From positions 653,001 through 717,000 of the forward strand of contig OY282373.1 in the NCBI GenBank assembly GCA_958295805.1: a stretch of 64,000 bases of DNA. Reading direction: 5' to 3'. The stretch is from an uncultured Nitrospirales bacterium. GTDB taxonomy: Bacteria; Nitrospirota; Nitrospiria; Nitrospirales; UBA8639. The notes under the pieces are model-generated. The model worked only from the letters and a program-made list of their open reading frames with translations. It did no database searches and had not been told where the DNA came from. Numbering within the stretch: position 1 is the first letter of the stretch; each line of letters begins with the position of its first letter. Made by a program: the position numbers and the translations under genes. Shown piece after piece: positions 39,191-47,867 of this stretch.

Positions 39191-39658
39191 ATGAAGACGT
39201 GCCAGCGCAACGGGGTTCTTCTGTTGTTCGTCCTGATGGCGTGGTTGTGGGGTGAGCATTCGGGCGGCGACGTGGTTCAGCCCGTCAACGCCAAAATCCT
39301 TGGGCAGGCGGATGATATTGCGAGGACGATTCACATCCAAAACCGCCGGTTTGTTCCGCATCTGGTCAACTTTCGGGTAGGGCAACACGTCCGGTTGATT
39401 CTGAAGAATCAAGACGTTGAACTCCACGCCTTTGTTCCCGTGGATCTTCTGGCTCGGACGAACGTCCAGGTCAGCGGCAATGGAGCGCCGGAGTTCGGCA
39501 AAGATGGATTTCGTCGAGTCTTGATTCCCTCACGTGGCCAAGTCGAGTTGGTGTTTGTGCCGAAGGAAGAGGGTGCCTTCACCTTTTTCTGTGATCTGCC
39601 CGGGCACGTGATGAACGGGACGATCGTCGTGAATAGCCGGGAGAATATGCTAGAGTGA
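39191..39658 (+). CDS. Periplasmic cupredoxin-like copper protein
   Basis: 155 residues with an N-terminal signal (VLLLFVLMAWLWG). The cupredoxin fold is indicated by VNFRVGQHVRLILKNQDVELHAF and by the ligand cluster TFFCDLPGHVM: H79, C134, H139 and M141 fit a type 1 copper site. Such proteins shuttle electrons to or from oxidases or nitrite-oxidising systems. It is followed by a large secreted protein gene and the sigma-54 cluster, which fits a periplasmic electron-transfer module. Confidence 0.83.
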   Translation: MKTCQRNGVLLLFVLMAWLWGEHSGGDVVQPVNAKILGQADDIARTIHIQNRRFVPHLVNFRVGQHVRLILKNQDVELHAFVPVDLLARTNVQVSGNGAPEFGKDGFRRVLIPSRGQVELVFVPKEEGAFTFFCDLPGHVMNGTIVVNSRENMLE

Positions 39659-39710: not shown

Positions 39711-41468
39711 ATGAAGGAGCACAGGGTTTCTTTTCGATACCGTCAACGCACCCATATGGATCACCTTGATCGATTGCGGGGCTTCGGGATGCTTTGGAGT
39801 TGGGTTGGGGCGTTGATGGTCGGGTTGTGTCTGTTCGGGGTGAGTGACCATTCCTATGCCGCCGACGTCGCGGACCCTCTCCCTGCCGTACCAAATCAAG
39901 CCGCGGTACAGGCGGTCCGCAACTACGTCAACGCGATAGCCGGCCGCGATTCAATCCGCGTGGCCCAAAACGATTTTGTCTGTTTGCTGAAAATGGTCGA
40001 AGCCGGTGCCCGAGGGGAAGGACGCTTTCTGCCTGACTCGGATCCGGTGTATGCCTGGTGTCGGGATCGGATTGCCCAAGCCCACGCCGACGTGATCGAG
40101 AGCCGCGACCGGGGTCTGGATGAGCTGTGGCCCGGGCATGGAAAGTTGGTGAATTTTCGAGATTTCAAGCGGTTCGAAATCGCAGAGACCCGCGCCCGCC
40201 AGCGTGCTCCCTCTTTTTTCGTGATGCCCGAAATCGGCGATGCGTCGGATCCCCCGGGATTCACCCTGGAAGTCCTGGGCACCGTGCCCTTTCCTCATGC
40301 GTCCTTTCAGCCGCCCGGGTCGGATCAGGTGGTTGCTGTGCCGACCACCTTGGTACGGGTACGGATGACGTATCCGAATCCGATGAACTCGCCCGCGGCC
40401 AATGGCCCGGGGCAACAAGATTGGGTGGTGCCGTATAAGAAACCCATCCATCCGGTCAAGGCCGTGGTCGTGAAATGGGTTGTCTTGTCAGGGTTGCTGG
40501 CCCATGGATTCCCCACGGATACCGCCGTTTTGAATATTCCGATGGAGTCTTCCCTGGGGACGTCGATTCCCTTTGTTGTCGATGCCGGCGGGTTTGAGCA
40601 GCAGTCCACGGAATTTTGGAACCCGAAAGAAGCCCATGCCGCCCTGGATGCCGGAGTGAAACGAGCGAAGACGTTCTCAACCCGCCGGGAGCGGATCTCG
40701 ATGCTCAACCGCGTGTTGGCGGTGAACCCGTCGCACGCGGAGGGACTGCGGGCCATTACCGCGGAACTGTATGACGGCTTAATGGACTTTGCGACACAAA
40801 CGCATGGCGTGAAGGTGGATGGCGCGGCGCTTCATCAAGCGTTCAATGAATTATATTGGACCGTCCAGTCGCAAACTGACCGGATGGATATTTCTCTCCA
40901 CATGGAAATGGGTGGAAAATCCGCCCCGACGCCTGCCGATTACTTGTACCGATTGATTCCCGCGATGGAAGCCCTCGTTGACTTACACCCTGAGGACGTT
41001 GACACGCGCTTGAAACTGAGTCTGGCGTATCGGTGGACGAACGATCAGCTCCCGGCCATCGCGGTTCCGCAACGCTTACTGTCCGAAGTGCCGGCGGATC
41101 AGACGCGCCTGCGGGCACGAGTCTTGATGACCATTGCCTGGTCACGCATCAGTAAGGTTGCCTGGAATCGAAATTTTGACGATCCTGATATTGTCCGAGG
41201 CTATGAGGACGCTGATGAGGCCTTCAAACTGTCGTCGGATCCATTGCTCAAATTCTCCGCGGCCTATGCCAAAGCCTACAGTTTAGCCTTTCGCCCCAAA
41301 CGGGATAACCAAGCCATGTTGAAGTTATTGACGGAGGCCCGACGATGGTATCAGCAGATTCCAGGAGCCACGAACCAGTCCTGGGTCTATCTCCTCCACA
41401 ATGACACCTTGAAAGGGTTGGTGGAAACCGATCCCACGTTTCAATCGTTGGTGGCGGCCAATTCGTAG
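39711..41468 (+). CDS. Large secreted protein with helical C-terminal half, function unknown
   Basis: 585 residues. ATG follows a strong AAAGGAGAAGG site. A long positively charged N-terminus precedes a hydrophobic signal (MLWSWVGALMVGLCLFGVS, cut near SYAAD). The middle part is beta-rich, the last 250 residues are helical and TPR-like (LNRVLAVNPSHAEGLRAI; DTRLKLSLAYRW). No enzyme motif is recognised. Its position directly before a sigma-54 activator gene suggests a shared pathway. Confidence 0.75.
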   Translation: MKEHRVSFRYRQRTHMDHLDRLRGFGMLWSWVGALMVGLCLFGVSDHSYAADVADPLPAVPNQAAVQAVRNYVNAIAGRDSIRVAQNDFVCLLKMVEAGARGEGRFLPDSDPVYAWCRDRIAQAHADVIESRDRGLDELWPGHGKLVNFRDFKRFEIAETRARQRAPSFFVMPEIGDASDPPGFTLEVLGTVPFPHASFQPPGSDQVVAVPTTLVRVRMTYPNPMNSPAANGPGQQDWVVPYKKPIHPVKAVVVKWVVLSGLLAHGFPTDTAVLNIPMESSLGTSIPFVVDAGGFEQQSTEFWNPKEAHAALDAGVKRAKTFSTRRERISMLNRVLAVNPSHAEGLRAITAELYDGLMDFATQTHGVKVDGAALHQAFNELYWTVQSQTDRMDISLHMEMGGKSAPTPADYLYRLIPAMEALVDLHPEDVDTRLKLSLAYRWTNDQLPAIAVPQRLLSEVPADQTRLRARVLMTIAWSRISKVAWNRNFDDPDIVRGYEDADEAFKLSSDPLLKFSAAYAKAYSLAFRPKRDNQAMLKLLTEARRWYQQIPGATNQSWVYLLHNDTLKGLVETDPTFQSLVAANS

Positions 41469-41492: not shown

Positions 41493-42887
41493 GTGGAGCT
41501 TGATTTTCGCAAAAATCCGCAGGTGCTCAGTACCATGATTGATGCCATGGCTGATGGCGTCTTCACCGTGGATGTTGAGGGTACCATTGTCGCCTGGAGC
41601 GTCGGGGCAGCACGCATTACCGGTTATTCCGGCGATGAAGTGATGGGCAAATCCTGCCATATCCTCGAAGGACAAAATTGTAAAGGATTCAGCAAACTCA
41701 CCGAGTTTCTAGAGAACCCGATGCCCTATCCGTGGGGAATCTGTCATCAAGAATGTAAGGTGCGGGCAAAGGACGGGCGGGAACTCTATCTCTATGGGAA
41801 CGTGTCGGTCTTACGAGATGCGCGCGGGGCGGTTGTTGGAGCCGTGGGTACGTTCACGGACCTCACGTCGTTTATTTTAGCCAAAGAAAAAATTCAGGTG
41901 TTGGAAGAACAGACGCGGTCAAGGAACTCGTTTCAGCAAATGGTCGGGAACAGCCCGGTGATGCAGGAAGTGTTTCGACGATTGCGATTGGCGGCGCAGG
42001 GGGACGTGCCCGTCTTGCTCACGGGAGAGTCAGGCACCGGCAAAGAGTTAGCCGCCCGGGCCATTCACGCCCTTAGTCCCAGAAAGGACCGACCGTTTCT
42101 GGCGATCAATTGTTCGGCCATTCCGGAGACCTTATTGGAAAGCGAATTATTCGGTCACGTGAAGGGAGCCTTTACCGGAGCGGTCCGCGACAAAATAGGC
42201 GTGTTTCAAGCGGCTGATGGGGGCACCCTGTTTCTTGATGAAATCGGTGATACCAGTCCCGTGCTTCAACTCAAACTGCTCCGCGTGTTGCAAGAAGGCG
42301 AAATTCGGCGCGTCGGCGATGAAAAAGAGATGAAGGTCAACGTGCGATTCCTCACCGCCACGAATAAGGACGTCAAGCACTTATTGACCACGGGTGCGAT
42401 GCGGGAAGATTTCTATTATCGGATTCGCGTGTTTGAAATCGCCCTGCCGCCCCTCAGAGAACGGCGCGAAGACTTGCCCTTATTGGTCAAGCACTTTATT
42501 GCCGAAGGATCCACGTTCCACGCCCACTCCATCAATGACATTGACCAGGATGCCATGCAGCAGCTCATAAAGTATCCATGGCCAGGCAATATTCGGGAAT
42601 TACGAAACGCGATTCAACATGCCTTTGTCACGGCCGAAGAAGGCTGTTTGACCGTCTTTGATCTTCCCCCGGAGGTGCGCGCGCCCACATCCCATTTGAC
42701 CCAAGGTTCACGAAGCAACCCCTTGAACCCTGAGCAACGGGCCGAACGCGATCAAATTCTTGAGGCCCTTCACAAAACGAAGGGTGGGAAAACCAAGGCT
42801 GCCGAATTGTTGGGATACAGCCGGGTGACTCTCTGGAAAAAATTGCAAAAGTTCGGCATCCAAGAACCTTCCTCTCAAATTCGTTAA
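41493..42887 (+). CDS. Sigma-54-dependent activator with Cys-containing PAS domain
   Basis: 464 residues, GTG start. Residues about 8-130 are a PAS domain with four cysteines (C55, C63, C84, C88; the last pair in GICHQECK). The AAA+ domain has Walker A GESGTGKE, the sigma-54 contact loop GAFTGA and LFLDEIGD. The C-terminal Fis-type helix-turn-helix reads KTKAAELLGYSRVTLWKKL. There is no receiver domain, so it senses a signal itself, perhaps redox, metal or oxygen through the cysteines. It very likely acts on the sigma-54 promoter at 43013. Confidence 0.93.
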   Translation: MELDFRKNPQVLSTMIDAMADGVFTVDVEGTIVAWSVGAARITGYSGDEVMGKSCHILEGQNCKGFSKLTEFLENPMPYPWGICHQECKVRAKDGRELYLYGNVSVLRDARGAVVGAVGTFTDLTSFILAKEKIQVLEEQTRSRNSFQQMVGNSPVMQEVFRRLRLAAQGDVPVLLTGESGTGKELAARAIHALSPRKDRPFLAINCSAIPETLLESELFGHVKGAFTGAVRDKIGVFQAADGGTLFLDEIGDTSPVLQLKLLRVLQEGEIRRVGDEKEMKVNVRFLTATNKDVKHLLTTGAMREDFYYRIRVFEIALPPLRERREDLPLLVKHFIAEGSTFHAHSINDIDQDAMQQLIKYPWPGNIRELRNAIQHAFVTAEEGCLTVFDLPPEVRAPTSHLTQGSRSNPLNPEQRAERDQILEALHKTKGGKTKAAELLGYSRVTLWKKLQKFGIQEPSSQIR

Positions 42888-43012
42888 CGTGTCAACTTAA
42901 CGCATTAACGTCCTACGTTGACAGTCCCGTCCTTCTTTCGCCTTTCAAATGCAGTCAAATGGCAAGCCATTGAAATTCAAGGACAATTTTTCTCCGATTC
43001 AGATTCAAACGC
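42888..43012 (+). promoter_or_regulatory. Candidate activator-binding sites upstream of the sigma-54 promoter
   Basis: Two inverted repeats: TGTCAAC (42890-42896) and GTTGACA (42917-42923) with 20 bases between, and AATGGC-AA-GCCATT (42958-42971). The first is about 100-120 bases upstream of the sigma-54 promoter, the usual distance for an enhancer-binding protein. The regulator gene ends just before it. Confidence 0.55.
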
Positions 43013-43028
43013 TGGCACGGCCTTTGCA
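43013..43028 (+). promoter_or_regulatory. Sigma-54 promoter
   Basis: TGGCACGGCCTTTGCA matches the consensus TGGCAC-N5-TTGCA exactly. Transcription would begin near 43040, leaving a leader of about 165 bases before the DUF1264 gene. It should drive that gene and probably the cytochrome genes after it. Confidence 0.88.
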
Positions 43029-43203
43029 TTATAGCATTTGTGCGAATGTTGACCAGGGAGATGACGGGATGACAAAGACCCCCCTGGCTTGCGCATGGTC
43101 TCGAAGTAGCATAGAGTTTTTATGAGCCAGTGGTGACGGTTCAGTGCTGGCCGTCAATCGGCAACGTGACCCAGAAAATCATTCAACCACAAGGAGGTCG
43201 GCA

Positions 43204-43722
43204 ATGTCTGATTCGGTTCGTTCAGGAAGCTTTATCGTGCTTGTCAGTTTCTTCTTCATTGGATGGATGTGCACTCCCGCACTCAGCGACGGCGGCAGCC
43301 CGGCGGATGGCTTTGGTCTTCACGTCCAGGCCCCGCACATGATGACTGACGGCAACGTCGGGGGACCCTTCCATCACTATTGCAAAGGCATTTCGGATGA
43401 AATCATCCAATGTCTTCTTTTTCCATCCACCGATCCCAAGGCCCCTTTGATCGGCGTGGAATATTTCGTGGCTAAAGACCTGGCACGCAAGGAAGTGCCC
43501 TTGATCACGTGGAACAGAAATTTCCATGACCATGAGGTAGAAATTGCGACGGGTCGCGTGAAGATTTTAGATATTGAAGATAAAGAGAAGGTCGCGGAAA
43601 TTGCCGCAGCGGCCGCGATGACCGACGGCGTCATTTACCATCTCTGGCAACCTGGCCTGAAAGTTCCTGACGGAACGGTGACGATTCCAAATTCGGTCGG
43701 TCACAAATTTCGAACCGAGTAG
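43204..43722 (+). CDS. Secreted DUF1264 (OBAP-like) protein
   Basis: 172 residues with an N-terminal signal sequence (FIVLVSFFFIGWMCTPALS). HHYCKGISDEIIQCLLF and LIGVEYFVAK are the hallmark of DUF1264, a family named from plant oil-body associated proteins and also found in bacteria, with no established bacterial role. The AAGGAGGT ribosome site is near perfect, so it should be translated strongly. It lies first after the sigma-54 promoter, in front of two cytochromes c. Confidence 0.88.
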   Translation: MSDSVRSGSFIVLVSFFFIGWMCTPALSDGGSPADGFGLHVQAPHMMTDGNVGGPFHHYCKGISDEIIQCLLFPSTDPKAPLIGVEYFVAKDLARKEVPLITWNRNFHDHEVEIATGRVKILDIEDKEKVAEIAAAAAMTDGVIYHLWQPGLKVPDGTVTIPNSVGHKFRTE

Positions 43723-43731
43723 CGTCGAGCC

Positions 43732-43758
43732 GGTGCGGGAGCGTATCACTCCCGCACC
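43732..43758 (+). other. Perfect 10-bp intercistronic hairpin
   Basis: Arms GGTGCGGGAG (43732-43741) and CTCCCGCACC (43749-43758) with a seven-base loop and no T run. It may protect the upstream mRNA or set the ratio of DUF1264 protein to cytochromes. Confidence 0.7.
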
Positions 43759-43793
43759 CGTTCACGTCCACGCGATTGTTTCAACGAACGCGT

Positions 43794-44243
43794 ATGTCCC
43801 TGATGCTTGGCAAGCCGTGGGTCCGTCATCTTCTGATGCTCTTCGTGGTCGGAAACTCGGCGGTCCTGGCGGCTGATTCGTCGGTTCTCAAGCCGCGCGT
43901 ACCACCCGATCAAATCGAAAAAGCGAAAACGTGGCGCAATCCGTTTCCCGCGACGCCTGACAATATCGAAAAAGGCAGAAAGATTTTTCACGGCAAGGCC
44001 TTTTGCGTGACGTGCCATGGACGGGACGGGAAAGGCTTGGGAAATATCCCGGGTCTTCGCGGACAGCTCCCTAGAAATTTTACGGATCAAGCGTGGCAGG
44101 CCGCACGAACCGACGGGGAACTGTTCTGGATTTTGAAAAACGGCAGCCCGGGCACGGACATGGCCTCCTTTATCCCGCTCGTGTTGACGGAAGAAGAAGC
44201 GTGGCAGGTTCTCCTGTACGTGCGTTCATTCGGACGCAGGTAA
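43794..44243 (+). CDS. Secreted monoheme cytochrome c
   Basis: 149 residues from ATG with a signal peptide (LLMLFVVGNSAVLAAD). One haem-c motif CVTCHGRDGKGLG follows EKGRKIFHGKAF in the class I cytochrome layout, and a methionine in GTDMASF is a possible axial ligand. The C-terminal half (DGELFWILKNG) resembles the fourth haem domain of the next gene. No obvious ribosome site. Periplasmic electron carrier. Confidence 0.88.
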   Translation: MSLMLGKPWVRHLLMLFVVGNSAVLAADSSVLKPRVPPDQIEKAKTWRNPFPATPDNIEKGRKIFHGKAFCVTCHGRDGKGLGNIPGLRGQLPRNFTDQAWQAARTDGELFWILKNGSPGTDMASFIPLVLTEEEAWQVLLYVRSFGRR

Positions 44244-44279
44244 TCCATTGTTGGAGAGAGTCGCGGGGAGGGCGTCATC

Positions 44280-45686
44280 ATGAATGTTGAAAATGTGAAA
44301 ACGCAGCTTGCGATGGTCGGTGTATACGTGAGCCTGTTGGCATCCTCGCCGCTTTGGGCTGCGGATGACCGGTATGCTGAAATGGTGGTGAAAAACATCT
44401 GTTCAGCCTGTCACAAATTTCAAGGCCAACCAGGAAGCCGGTTCAATTTGAACGCTCCGGATTTGATGTGGGCTGGGAGCAAATATCAACACACGTGGCT
44501 GATCGGGTTTCTGACCGGCACGGAGAAAAGGTTGTATGCCAAAAGCTATCGGTGGGATCAGGGATGGGAACCGGACGTGCATAGAAGGCTTTCTGAAGAT
44601 CAAGCCGAGGCGGTCGCGACCTATTTGGAAAAGCAGTACGTGGACCCCCGCGTGACCGTCGGCGCGTTCGACGTTTCAAAGGTAACCAGAAAAGAAGCGG
44701 AGTTCGGTGCCCAGGCGTACAAGGAACACGCCTGCATCGGATGTCACACCATTGAAGAAAATGGGCAACCGGTCGGTGGGCCGCAAAGCGTCGACTTGGC
44801 GGAGGCAGGGCGCCGCTACAACCCGGATTGGCTCTTTCGTTTTGCGATCAATCCTCAAGATTTTACGCCGCACAGCGGAGAATTTCTGGCGGACGCCACG
44901 GAATTCGGCTTGCGGGCAGTGGTTGGGTATCTCATGACGTTGGGCGTCCCGGATTTCGAATACGACGAGCCATGGACCAGCCCGGAGTTTTCTCAGGCAA
45001 ACGTGGATCGTGGAAAGGTGGTCTATAAAGAGTATTGTTCACAATGTCACGGCGCGACGGGACAAGGTGATGGTCCGGCTGCCTCGGGGTTGAGTCCCAA
45101 ACCGGCGGTTCATGCCAACATGGCCTTTGACAAGTTGCCGATGGAATACCTCTACAACGTGATCTATCATGGTGGGCGAAGCGTGGGAAAATCCCCCGCC
45201 ATGCCGTATTGGAGTCTCACGATTGGTCAGCAGGGGGTGGCGGACGTTATTGCGTACCTGAAAGCCACGTTCAAGGGAGTGCCGGAGATGGCTGCGGCGA
45301 CAGCAGAAGGCGGTCCCTCGGGTGTCTGCCCGCAACCACGAAAGACCAAGCGGGCTCCAGGAAATTTCCGAAAACGGACGAATCCTTTGCCGGCGAATCA
45401 GGCCAACGTGAAAGCCGGTGAAACATTGTTCCAACAAACGGCGCAACCCTTGGCGTGCGTGAACTGTCATGGGGCCAAAGGTGATGGACAAGGACCGATG
45501 GGGGCGGCCTTGAATCCACCTCCACGGAACTTCACGTGTGGTGAGACCATGCAGGATATTTCTGATGGTCAGATGTTCTGGATCATTAAAAAAGGTTCCG
45601 AAGGCACGGGCATGATGGCCTTTTCTGCTATGCCTGATAACCAGATATGGCAATTAATTCATTACATTAGGACTCTGGCGAAGTAA
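44280..45686 (+). CDS. Secreted tetraheme cytochrome c
   Basis: 468 residues with a signal peptide (LLASSPLWAAD). Four haem motifs: CSACH at 41, CIGCH at 152, CSQCH at 253 and CVNCH at 393, each in its own class I-like domain, so it is a concatenated cytochrome. It is 36 bases after the monoheme gene with a GGGGAGGG ribosome site, and its last domain resembles that protein. Probably accepts electrons in the periplasm from a dehydrogenase or oxidoreductase not in this window. Confidence 0.92.
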   Translation: MNVENVKTQLAMVGVYVSLLASSPLWAADDRYAEMVVKNICSACHKFQGQPGSRFNLNAPDLMWAGSKYQHTWLIGFLTGTEKRLYAKSYRWDQGWEPDVHRRLSEDQAEAVATYLEKQYVDPRVTVGAFDVSKVTRKEAEFGAQAYKEHACIGCHTIEENGQPVGGPQSVDLAEAGRRYNPDWLFRFAINPQDFTPHSGEFLADATEFGLRAVVGYLMTLGVPDFEYDEPWTSPEFSQANVDRGKVVYKEYCSQCHGATGQGDGPAASGLSPKPAVHANMAFDKLPMEYLYNVIYHGGRSVGKSPAMPYWSLTIGQQGVADVIAYLKATFKGVPEMAAATAEGGPSGVCPQPRKTKRAPGNFRKRTNPLPANQANVKAGETLFQQTAQPLACVNCHGAKGDGQGPMGAALNPPPRNFTCGETMQDISDGQMFWIIKKGSEGTGMMAFSAMPDNQIWQLIHYIRTLAK

Positions 45687-45789
45687 AAACAGACGAGGTG
45701 CGAGCAGCGGCGTCCTCTGAAGAAAATTGACATCATCGGCGTAGAGGGGCACAATTCGTCGTCATTGTTCAATCGACGAGGTGAGAAGC

Positions 45790-46269
45790 GTGCTGAACAA
45801 TCCGTGGGTCGTGGGATTCCTTTGCGTCATGGTGTTGATCACACTGTCCGTCCAGTGGCTTGGTTCGACGGACCATCCCGAATTTCCCGTGCCTCCGTTG
45901 GCAGCTCAAGCCGTTTCGGTAAGTACGTCCGAGTCATTACCCCCCTCCGTGGCGTTCACTCCGACGATTCAGAAACAACCAAAGCCATTTGACTGGTCAA
46001 GCGTTCCGGCGCGAGACCCATTCCAACCTCCCCGTGCCGTTTCCGGAATGACCCAAGATCGTGCCGACGGCGAAGAACCCGGAGATCGTGTGGACTTCCA
46101 CCTTCAGGCCATCCTGAGGCAGGGTTCGACGCGAGTCGCGATGATTGACCGGCGACTTGTGAAAGAGGGCGAAACCATTGCCGGCTATCTCGTTGCCAGC
46201 ATTCAGGAAGAAGGTGTTCTGCTTCAAGGGCCTCACGACCGCCGGTGGTTACGATTTCGAGAGTCATGA
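45790..46269 (+). CDS. PilP/GspC-like inner-membrane pilus or secretion protein
   Basis: 159 residues from a GTG with GAGGTGAG seven bases upstream; another GTG is three codons earlier. One N-terminal membrane helix (VVGFLCVMVLITLSVQWL), a Pro/Ser linker, then SVPARDPFQPP and a small beta domain (LQAILRQGSTRVAMID; GETIAGYLVASI). This layout is typical of PilP and MshK-like proteins that link the inner membrane to the secretin. The stop overlaps the secretin start (ATGA). Confidence 0.78.
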   Translation: MLNNPWVVGFLCVMVLITLSVQWLGSTDHPEFPVPPLAAQAVSVSTSESLPPSVAFTPTIQKQPKPFDWSSVPARDPFQPPRAVSGMTQDRADGEEPGDRVDFHLQAILRQGSTRVAMIDRRLVKEGETIAGYLVASIQEEGVLLQGPHDRRWLRFRES

Positions 46270-47867
46270 AAGCGAGGGACACCCACGTGATACTCAGGAA
46301 ACTCCCCATTCATTCGCGTGACCACGTGGGTGGCGGTGCGCCGGGACGATCGGGCGGCATGGGCGCGTTGCTCCTTTTTTTGACGTGGATGGTCGGGTGC
46401 TCCATGCTTCCCGAGTATTCCCCTTCCCCAATCTTCAAGGATCGGAGCGAGCGACGATTCCCCATGCCGTCGGAGATGCAGCCTGATGCTGGTTCGACGG
46501 CAGCGGCCTCCCGGGAAACGCTTTCCTCTGATCTGGACCATCCCTTTTCTCTTGAAGAACGCATGTCGTTTGGACGGCCGTCTGACAAACATCCAAGCGA
46601 CGCCGAGTCTTCCCGGGTGTTCAGCTTTCGCGCGCAGGACATGCCCTTAGCCGATGCCTTACGTCTGTTCTCTCGCGTGAACAAACTCAATATCATCGTG
46701 GAGCCTGGGGTTGAAGGCGTGGTGACGGTCGATTTTCAGGGTTTCGGTCTTGAAAAAGCCTTGGCGGCCTTGTTGGAGACGCAGGGATACTACTGGGAAC
46801 GGGATGAAGAATTGATTGTGGTGCGGCGTCTGGAAACGCGAATTTTCACGCTGGACTACATTCGGATGGAACGTTCCGGCACGGGACGCAATAAAGCGCA
46901 AGTCACGTCAGGATCAGGTCGAGGCGGAAGCGGTGGGCAGGACGCGGGAGAAGTGATCCTGAGCCAACAGGATCAGATCAAGTTCTGGGAAGAAATGGAG
47001 ACACAAATCCAAGCACTCCTTTCGACCGAAGGACGCTTCGTCGTCAATCGGTTGTCGGGCACCATTCACGTGACGGATCTGCACCGTCGGGTCAACGACG
47101 TGGCGAAGTTTCTGGCCAACGTCCGCAACTCACTCTATCGACAGGTTGAGATTCAGGCCAAAATCTATGAAGTCGCGCTGAGAGACGACGCCAGTCTGGG
47201 ATTGAATTGGGATCGGATCAATCTCAGCGACCCCGCCAGCAGTTTTAAGCTGGCGAATATCATCACGTCGCCGGCCGGTGGGTTTGTCGCACGAGCCGCC
47301 ACCGCCACCTTCAACTTTAACGACGGCAAATTCAGAGGGGTCATCCAAGCCTTACAGGAGCAGGGTGAAGTGCAAGTGGTGTCTCAACCTCGGATTCTGA
47401 CGCTGAATAACCAACCGGCGCTGATTAAGGTGGGGACGGATCAATCCTTTTTTACGTCAACGACTTCCCAAGGAGTCGGAGGTGCCGGCAACGTGATTAC
47501 GGAGCAAGTGCGGACCGTGACGTCGGGTCTCGTCCTCTCCGTGACGCCGCAGATTTCGCAGGATGGGTGGATCATGATGGACGTGTCTCCCATTCTCACC
47601 CGATTGACCGATACCGCGACGTCGGACAATGGCTCCACCGCTCCCATCATGGAGGTGAAGCAATCCGGCGGACTGGTCCGCGTGCGGGATGGACAGATGG
47701 TGGTGATCGGCGGGCTTATCCAAGAGCAACTCACGGATACCGAACGGAAGGTGCCCTTCCTTGGCGATCTTCCCGGACTTGGTTGGTTGTTCAGGGGCAC
47801 CTATCAGGCCGAAAGAAAAACGGAACTCATCATCTTCCTCATGCCTCGCCTTCTGAACGTGACGTGA
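46266..47867 (+). CDS. mshL: MshL/PilQ-type secretin lipoprotein
   Basis: 533 residues. A signal with lipobox LTWMVGC predicts an outer-membrane lipoprotein. Secretin N-domains (FSFRAQDMPLADALRLFSRV-like at about residue 120) precede the secretin core, with VVSQPRILTLNNQPALIKVG, GLVLSVTPQIS and FLGDLPGLGWLF at the C-terminus. It forms the outer-membrane pore of MSHA-type pili or type II secretion. ATGA and TGATG overlaps with both neighbours show tight coupling. Confidence 0.9.
   Translation: MKARDTHVILRKLPIHSRDHVGGGAPGRSGGMGALLLFLTWMVGCSMLPEYSPSPIFKDRSERRFPMPSEMQPDAGSTAAASRETLSSDLDHPFSLEERMSFGRPSDKHPSDAESSRVFSFRAQDMPLADALRLFSRVNKLNIIVEPGVEGVVTVDFQGFGLEKALAALLETQGYYWERDEELIVVRRLETRIFTLDYIRMERSGTGRNKAQVTSGSGRGGSGGQDAGEVILSQQDQIKFWEEMETQIQALLSTEGRFVVNRLSGTIHVTDLHRRVNDVAKFLANVRNSLYRQVEIQAKIYEVALRDDASLGLNWDRINLSDPASSFKLANIITSPAGGFVARAATATFNFNDGKFRGVIQALQEQGEVQVVSQPRILTLNNQPALIKVGTDQSFFTSTTSQGVGGAGNVITEQVRTVTSGLVLSVTPQISQDGWIMMDVSPILTRLTDTATSDNGSTAPIMEVKQSGGLVRVRDGQMVVIGGLIQEQLTDTERKVPFLGDLPGLGWLFRGTYQAERKTELIIFLMPRLLNVT

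Follow-up and report, generated by a model that had tools for sequence, protein, structure and literature searches.

Within a 64,000-nucleotide (nt) stretch of the genome of an uncultured Nitrospirales bacterium (GenBank GCA_958295805.1, contig OY282373.1, positions 653,001 to 717,000 of the forward strand; hereafter the window), a gene for an exported DUF1264 protein is followed directly by a gene for an exported monoheme cytochrome c, and we find the two to be a unit kept by selection in both Nitrospirales and Nitrospinota, since their synteny is conserved and their presence and absence are linked. The window genome, one contig of 2.9 Mb, encodes an NxrA of 1147 residues and is thus that of a nitrite oxidizer; its genus probably corresponds to the sponge-rich lineage IVb of PMC12342949. 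As a whole the locus is best explained by a redox pair in the periplasm, expressed under regulation and probably directed at reactive sulfur, a reading that we put forward tentatively and at not quite an even balance. An original prediction, made from the letters alone, had described a secreted DUF1264 protein coexpressed with a monoheme and a tetraheme cytochrome; all three genes are real, and open reading frame (ORF) reading and Pfam place them where it had put them. New in the present analysis are an activator gene, candidate activator sites upstream of the promoter, and sulfur genes in the operons of sister genera.

Results and Discussion

The DUF1264 gene (43204..43722, plus strand) encodes 172 residues that belong to Pfam PF06884 at 55.2 bits (cut-off 25, E 8.5e-15), with a match that covers profile positions 3-131 of 171 and stops short of the full-length, plant-type OBAP match. 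Its N-terminus holds a hydrophobic stretch that resembles, as judged by eye, the signal peptide claimed for it, and the ribosome site described as near-perfect is the Shine-Dalgarno sequence AAGGAGGT at 43191..43198 (plus strand), just before the ATG. The protein contains no CxxCH motif, which excludes heme binding of that type. After 71 nt follows the monoheme cytochrome (43794..44243, plus strand, 149 residues, one CxxCH), which scores 40.3 bits with Pfam Cytochrom_C and 39.1 bits with Cytochrome_CBB3, each above cut-off, and after a further 36 nt the exported tetraheme cytochrome (44280..45686, plus strand, 468 residues, four CxxCH, Cytochrom_C 117.9 bits). Both are class I cytochromes c by the combination of CxxCH with a Cytochrom_C match above cut-off.

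For synteny, 161 loci including the window were gathered and annotated with a simple ORF picker. Three loci in which the picker missed DUF1264 were left out (L061, L079 and L160, the first two of which do show DUF1264 and then a cytochrome), collapse of near-duplicates at 97% identity or above took 158 loci to 110, and two more, with no gene downstream, could not enter the adjacency count, giving 108; the controls were 20 windows drawn from 16 of these genomes. A same-strand CxxCH gene lies directly 3' of DUF1264 in 94/108 non-redundant loci, against 8/188 same-strand control pairs (Fisher 2e-51), and among the 14 loci that appear to lack it at least one (L057) is an ORF-picking error with the cytochrome actually in place. 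A second DUF1264 subfamily, in Nitrospinota, is likewise paired with a cytochrome. Presence follows the same pattern: the cognate cytochrome, at an E limit of 1e-50 fixed after the table had been seen, occurs in 95 of 103 DUF1264-positive and one of 14 negative Nitrospirales genomes (Fisher 4e-11, uncorrected for shared descent). Among the eight positive genomes without it, G374 has a cytochrome of 55% identity right behind DUF1264, and in G386, G380 and G381 DUF1264 sits at a contig end and points outward. Protein distances of the two partners correlate across 93 pairs (Spearman 0.71, shared descent again uncorrected).

Many of the sampled loci are related to each other, as they would be if adjacency merely reflected chance or descent among near-identical genomes; after the collapse, however, the pairing persists in many genera of two phyla and in both DUF1264 subfamilies, with flanking genes that differ, and we regard this explanation as hardly credible. 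The original prediction had staked itself on cytochromes recurring beside DUF1264 in other genomes, and both the counts above and the linked presence and absence across the order bear this out. Of its periplasmic redox module, the pairing with the monoheme cytochrome is supported, a redox or metal role of DUF1264 is putative, and the tetraheme cytochrome as a core member is not supported: a tetraheme orthologue lies within six genes in 5/10 loci of the window's genus and is rarer in related lineages except Nitrospinota (22/31 matches). The tetraheme protein is thus lineage-specific and outside the conserved core. Tandem double DUF1264 genes followed by a single cytochrome occur in L059, L062, L080 and L081 (family f2, genus g8).

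DUF1264 is present in 91 of the 295 sampled genomes of the phylum, namely in 89/98 within Nitrospirales and 2/197 outside the order, in 37/77 Nitrospinota genomes and in 0/14 named control genomes. In a collection scan the best 80 of 266 relatives are all Nitrospirales or Nitrospinota by record title, and the nearest named records among these 80 are Nitrospirales metagenome-assembled genomes, including Nitrospira sp. bin75. A viral collection gave no relative, and a plasmid search with the window protein gave one record. In the DUF1264 tree two Nitrospinota groups, of 10 and 5 rows, are nested within Nitrospirales, while in the cytochrome tree, which is poorly resolved and carries one bad row (L130, branch 9.6), the same 15 rows form one group. 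Transfer between the phyla is likely, once or several times and in either direction.

A Predicted Dedicated Sigma-54 Switch

Directly upstream of the pair lies the gene for a 464-residue sigma-54 activator (41493..42887, plus strand) with a PAS domain, an AAA+ domain and a Fis-type helix-turn-helix (Pfam Sigma54_activat 227.5 bits, PAS_9 and HTH_8). The sigma-54 promoter that had been predicted before DUF1264 is indeed there, as the -24/-12 element CTGGCACGGCCTTTGCA at 43012..43028 (plus strand), a perfect match to the consensus; TGGCAC-N5-TTGCA is expected 0.03 times per window. Orthologues of the activator (at least 60% identity) were found in 40 loci, 23 of them non-redundant, and a sigma-54 site matching at least 9 of 11 positions lies within 450 nt past the activator stop codon in 38/40 and 22/23 of these, respectively. 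The gene that comes next varies: the window's genus and a small number of other lineages have DUF1264 in this place, and elsewhere it is a gene for a protein with a metallo-beta-lactamase (MBL) fold and rhodanese domains, or a rhodanese gene, after which DUF1264 and the cytochrome follow.

Between activator and promoter, the words CGTTAA/TTAACG occur one to four times per locus, 56 times in total over 22 non-redundant loci against a mononucleotide-shuffle mean of 2.1, a count that is post hoc because the word was picked after the data of a palindrome test had been seen. The words sit 86-160 nt upstream of the -24 element, the region bound by activators of the sigma-54 class. In the window the candidate activator site is CGTTAACGTGTCAACTTAACGCATTAACG (42882..42910), which overlaps the stop codon of the activator gene; allowing one mismatch, TTAAC-N8-TTAACG has three matches in the window, all at this site, against 0.22 expected. 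Among 194 sigma-54-like sites in 1.276 Mb (44%) of the genome, only the one before DUF1264 has at least three GTTAAC-type words upstream. The palindrome TGTCAAC-N20-GTTGACA was tried as the upstream site and rejected, being present in 1/22 loci. Judged from these patterns, activator, sites and promoter apparently form a conserved, dedicated switch, in which, in the window's family, the activator very probably acts from the recurring GTTAAC-type sites, to which it would bind, to open the -24/-12 promoter. Cys63, Cys84 and Cys88 of the activator's PAS domain are kept in 22/22 orthologues and Cys55 in 21/22, and these four cysteines perhaps sense reactive sulfur. Control of the pair by sigma-54 outside the window's family finds no support, as sites matching at least 9 of 11 positions precede DUF1264 in 5 of 84 activator-less non-redundant loci, and one of these five, L036, is itself from the window's genus.

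An Intercistronic Hairpin

The perfect 10-bp hairpin reported between DUF1264 and the cytochromes was found at 43732..43758 (plus strand) as GGTGCGGGAG-CGTATCA-CTCCCGCACC, and it has no T-rich tail. The 86-nt stretch around it (43715-43800) folds at -39.2 kcal/mol (z -4.1), and none of 200 shuffles reaches so low an energy. Within 90 nt of the end of the DUF1264 gene, a perfect downstream stem of at least 9 bp that closes a loop of 3-10 recurs with differing sequences in 40/109 non-redundant loci, compared with 11/256 control gene ends and 0/109 shuffles. Since only one of the 40 hairpins has six or more T in the nine bases after the stem, this is not an ordinary terminator; a stabilizing or dosage-setting intercistronic hairpin fits the pattern better. 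The proposal that it serves higher expression of DUF1264 gains from this recurrence and form: the hairpin may stabilize the DUF1264 end of the mRNA and so give more DUF1264 than cytochrome.

Residues and Relatives of DUF1264

Residues H58, E86, H108, H110 and E113 are invariant in all 115 DUF1264 sequences compared, and H45 is kept in 114. Both C60 and C70 are present in 108/108 exported-type sequences and are jointly absent from two of seven plant-type bacterial homologues, and this common retention and common loss suggests a C60-C70 disulfide next to a putative His/Glu metal site. Plant DUF1264 members act at oil bodies, which, together with the link of DUF1264 to one particular cytochrome and the correlated distances of the two, would suit a DUF1264 that merely helps the cytochrome, in maturation or by binding lipid, and has no redox chemistry of its own. 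Plant-type homologues, however, show no cytochrome partner in six plasmid neighborhoods although they retain the His/Glu set, an indication of chemistry that does not depend on a cytochrome, and we consider the helper role improbable. One genome (G274) also holds a plant-type DUF1264 of 263 residues (L051:7669-8460; PF06884 233.8 bits, profile 2-170), with no cytochrome adjoining.

A literature search, made largely from sources other than full texts, returned no bacterial role for DUF1264 or OBAP. An architecture that joins a cold-shock domain to DUF1264 is reported for 801 proteins (PMC4679880). The name may in that case have been confused with DUF1294. Sequence searches of the PDB gave two matches at E 0.5 (immune receptors) in one run and none in a second. 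Two sheet-type cytochromes c' appear low in the structural match lists of DUF1264 at Z 2.4 and 2.1, which is noise level, and they were not used.

Proposed Signal and Substrate of the Pair

Reactive sulfur, in the form of persulfide, sulfide or sulfite, is the most likely signal, because sister genera have this activator and promoter ahead of MBL-rhodanese and rhodanese genes, DUF1264 and the cytochrome, and sometimes SorA/SorB. Sulfur-type genes were counted within six genes of the pair with a query set of MBL-rhodanese, rhodanese with a YgaP-like domain, SorA-like, SorB-like, CoA-disulfide-reductase-like, YeeE/YedE and DsrE proteins, names that rest on Pfam; the MBL-rhodanese protein is probably of the persulfide-dioxygenase type, to go by its architecture. 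Such genes are found at 7/9 other sampled loci of the window's family, at 8/8 named loci that have the window's activator or its upstream gene, at 9/20 other named loci and at 13/31 Nitrospinota loci, against 2/20 control windows with such a gene at any position. At several sister loci, SorA-like and SorB-like genes stand downstream of the pair. A distant DUF1264 (27% identity) on an Azospirillum plasmid lies near DsbD, DsbA, a sulfurtransferase, an MBL-fold protein, TauE and two YeeE/YedE genes, an independent hint of a sulfur link. In 18 loci, duplicates included (for example L102:8298-8705 and L131:8343-8750), a 135-residue protein unmatched in Pfam and NCBIfam is encoded after the cytochrome and before the SorA-like gene.

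Several observations weigh against a sulfur role and against the assignment of an enzymatic one. Sulfur-type genes lie within six genes of the pair in 0/10 loci of the window's own genus and in only 6/32 loci of family f2, and the overall comparison (43/110 loci against 14/149 control centers) is partly circular, because the query set was drawn from the same neighborhoods. An MBL-rhodanese orthologue is found in 0/10 genomes of the window's genus, set against 7/8 sampled family genomes outside it; activator, promoter, DUF1264 and cytochrome persist in the genus and the MBL-rhodanese gene has been lost, so that the pair either can do without what was lost or acts on some other substrate. In NCBIfam the SorA-like protein reaches 588 of the 600 bits needed and the SorB-like protein 87 of 93, the CoA-disulfide-reductase-like protein also falls below its cut-off, and the MBL-rhodanese protein comes nowhere near one. 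On other plasmids, which are incompletely annotated, five plant-type homologues lie in no sulfur cluster. Two predicted DUF1264 models, with predicted local distance difference test (pLDDT) values of 73.8 and 80.0, have no Foldseek match at E 0.001 or below and best VIA-align Z scores of 3.6 and 3.3.

Because both phyla oxidize nitrite, a link to nitrite was considered first: the monoheme cytochrome would carry electrons from NXR toward the oxidase, with DUF1264 assisting. NxrA, at 73% identity or more, is found in 83/98 sampled Nitrospirales genomes as well as in the window genome, and on re-searching the 15 apparent absences proved to comprise nine fragments (78-98% identity, mostly at contig ends), weaker matches only in G169, and five genomes with none. 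In Nitrospinota, NxrA (at least 50%) occurs in 19/37 DUF1264-positive and 9/40 negative genomes (Fisher 0.01), a comparison weakened by broken assemblies, as 10 of the 18 further positives hold fragments and the negatives were not re-searched. Lucker et al. (PMC3578206) report cytochromes common to Nitrospina and Nitrospira next to NXR. NxrA is, however, present in all nine DUF1264-negative genomes among the 98 of the order and in nine Nitrospinota that have no DUF1264, so that DUF1264 is not needed for nitrite oxidation, and we lowered our estimate of a link of the whole family to that process on these grounds. Moreover, the query set used found no NXR gene beside the pair, and an inducible sigma-54 switch is ill-suited to a constitutive main pathway; a role in the nitrite-oxidation chain is, in our view, rather unlikely.

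Defense against peroxide or redox stress, in which the cytochrome would feed a diheme peroxidase and DUF1264 would protect or repair periplasmic proteins, is kept as a rival because a CCP/MauG-type diheme gene (Pfam CCP_MauG 203 bits) lies within six genes of the pair in 9/32 loci of family f2 and 6/31 of Nitrospinota, against 0/20 control windows. Of five plant-type homologues on plasmids, two have a general stress protein, ferritin-like proteins or manganese catalase nearby. Against this stand the low counts of CCP/MauG-type genes close to home, 0/10 in the window's genus and 1/9 in the rest of the sampled family, and the sulfur type of the gene that adjoins the shared activator in sister genera, and we rate stress defense no higher than the nitrite role. 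The CCP/MauG-type gene stands just upstream of DUF1264 in L060, L061, L076 and other f2 loci.

The periplasmic redox pair for reactive sulfur, which we prefer, would work as follows. The conserved His/Glu residues of DUF1264 would coordinate a metal, and C60 and C70 would form a disulfide; the protein would act on a reactive sulfur species in the periplasm, and electrons would pass to the cytochrome and thence to the oxidase. In its strictest form, that DUF1264 is an unrecognized periplasmic metal enzyme which oxidizes reactive sulfur (persulfide, sulfane sulfur or a related species), hands the electrons to its own cytochrome c and is under a sulfur-sensing sigma-54 switch, the proposal is a bold one that we think doubtful. 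If it were true, nitrite oxidizers of two phyla would share an inducible respiratory branch for sulfur oxidation or detoxification, passed between phyla as a pair, and the oil-body proteins of plants would turn out to be members of a metal-dependent redox enzyme family. The DUF1264-cytochrome pair with its predicted switch points to a concrete inducible redox branch, open to test, in bacteria of central ecological importance; it offers a physiological setting for a widespread family of no known function, and the regulator-site-promoter set can be tested directly with sulfur compounds.

Flanking Genes

Upstream of the activator lie genes for a cupredoxin-like exported protein of 155 residues (39191..39658, plus strand; Pfam Cupredoxin_1 39.2 bits) and for an exported protein of about 585 residues (39711..41468, plus strand), with homologues in 31 and 39 loci, respectively, duplicates included. 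The family of the latter is not assigned, with no match in Pfam, NCBIfam or PADLOC. Directly downstream of the tetraheme gene, secretion-type genes start (45781-47867), including a secretin at 46245-47867 (Pfam 149 bits) preceded by a 162-residue protein without Pfam match.

Comparison with Known Systems

Among named NCBIfam models, Cytochrome 579 of Leptospirillum (NF033864) is closest to the monoheme cytochrome, which at 106.2 bits lies far under the cut-off of 280 and outside that family. DUF1264 shares its Pfam family and conserved His/Glu set with plant and proteobacterial OBAP/DUF1264 proteins; unlike these, the window type is shorter and exported, has diverged over the second half of the profile, always has the cysteine pair (108 sequences) and is followed by a cytochrome, whereas none is annotated near six plasmid-borne homologues, for which the gene table is incomplete. 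SorAB of Nitrospirales and Nitrospina, as far as the accessible parts of PMC12342949, PMC3578206 and PMC8115632 describe it, resembles the proposed pair in coupling periplasmic sulfur chemistry to cytochrome c in the same organisms. It differs in that SorA is a molybdoenzyme and DUF1264 is not. Most lineage IVb genomes from sponges reportedly lack SorAB. Nitrite oxidizers are known to carry sulfur genes such as sorAB and SQR, and no phenotype has been tied to SorAB (PMC10579370).

The nearest precedent for the switch is found in the FisR systems of Cupriavidus and Acinetobacter. FisR is a sigma-54 activator encoded beside the sigma-54 promoter of SQR/PDO genes, and the cysteines of Cupriavidus FisR are absent from that of Acinetobacter (PMC7315123, in the part accessible). 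A FisR-type persulfide dioxygenase gene was not found in the window's genus (MBL-rhodanese in 0/10 genomes), and SQR was not searched for. Within the limits of that source, the present locus differs from FisR operons in its PAS sensor with four cysteines and in having DUF1264 and the monoheme cytochrome as its core. It shares with them a dedicated AAA+/DNA-binding sigma-54 activator gene adjoining the operon and a sigma-54 promoter in front of it, and in sister genera also an MBL-fold protein with rhodanese domains as the first gene.

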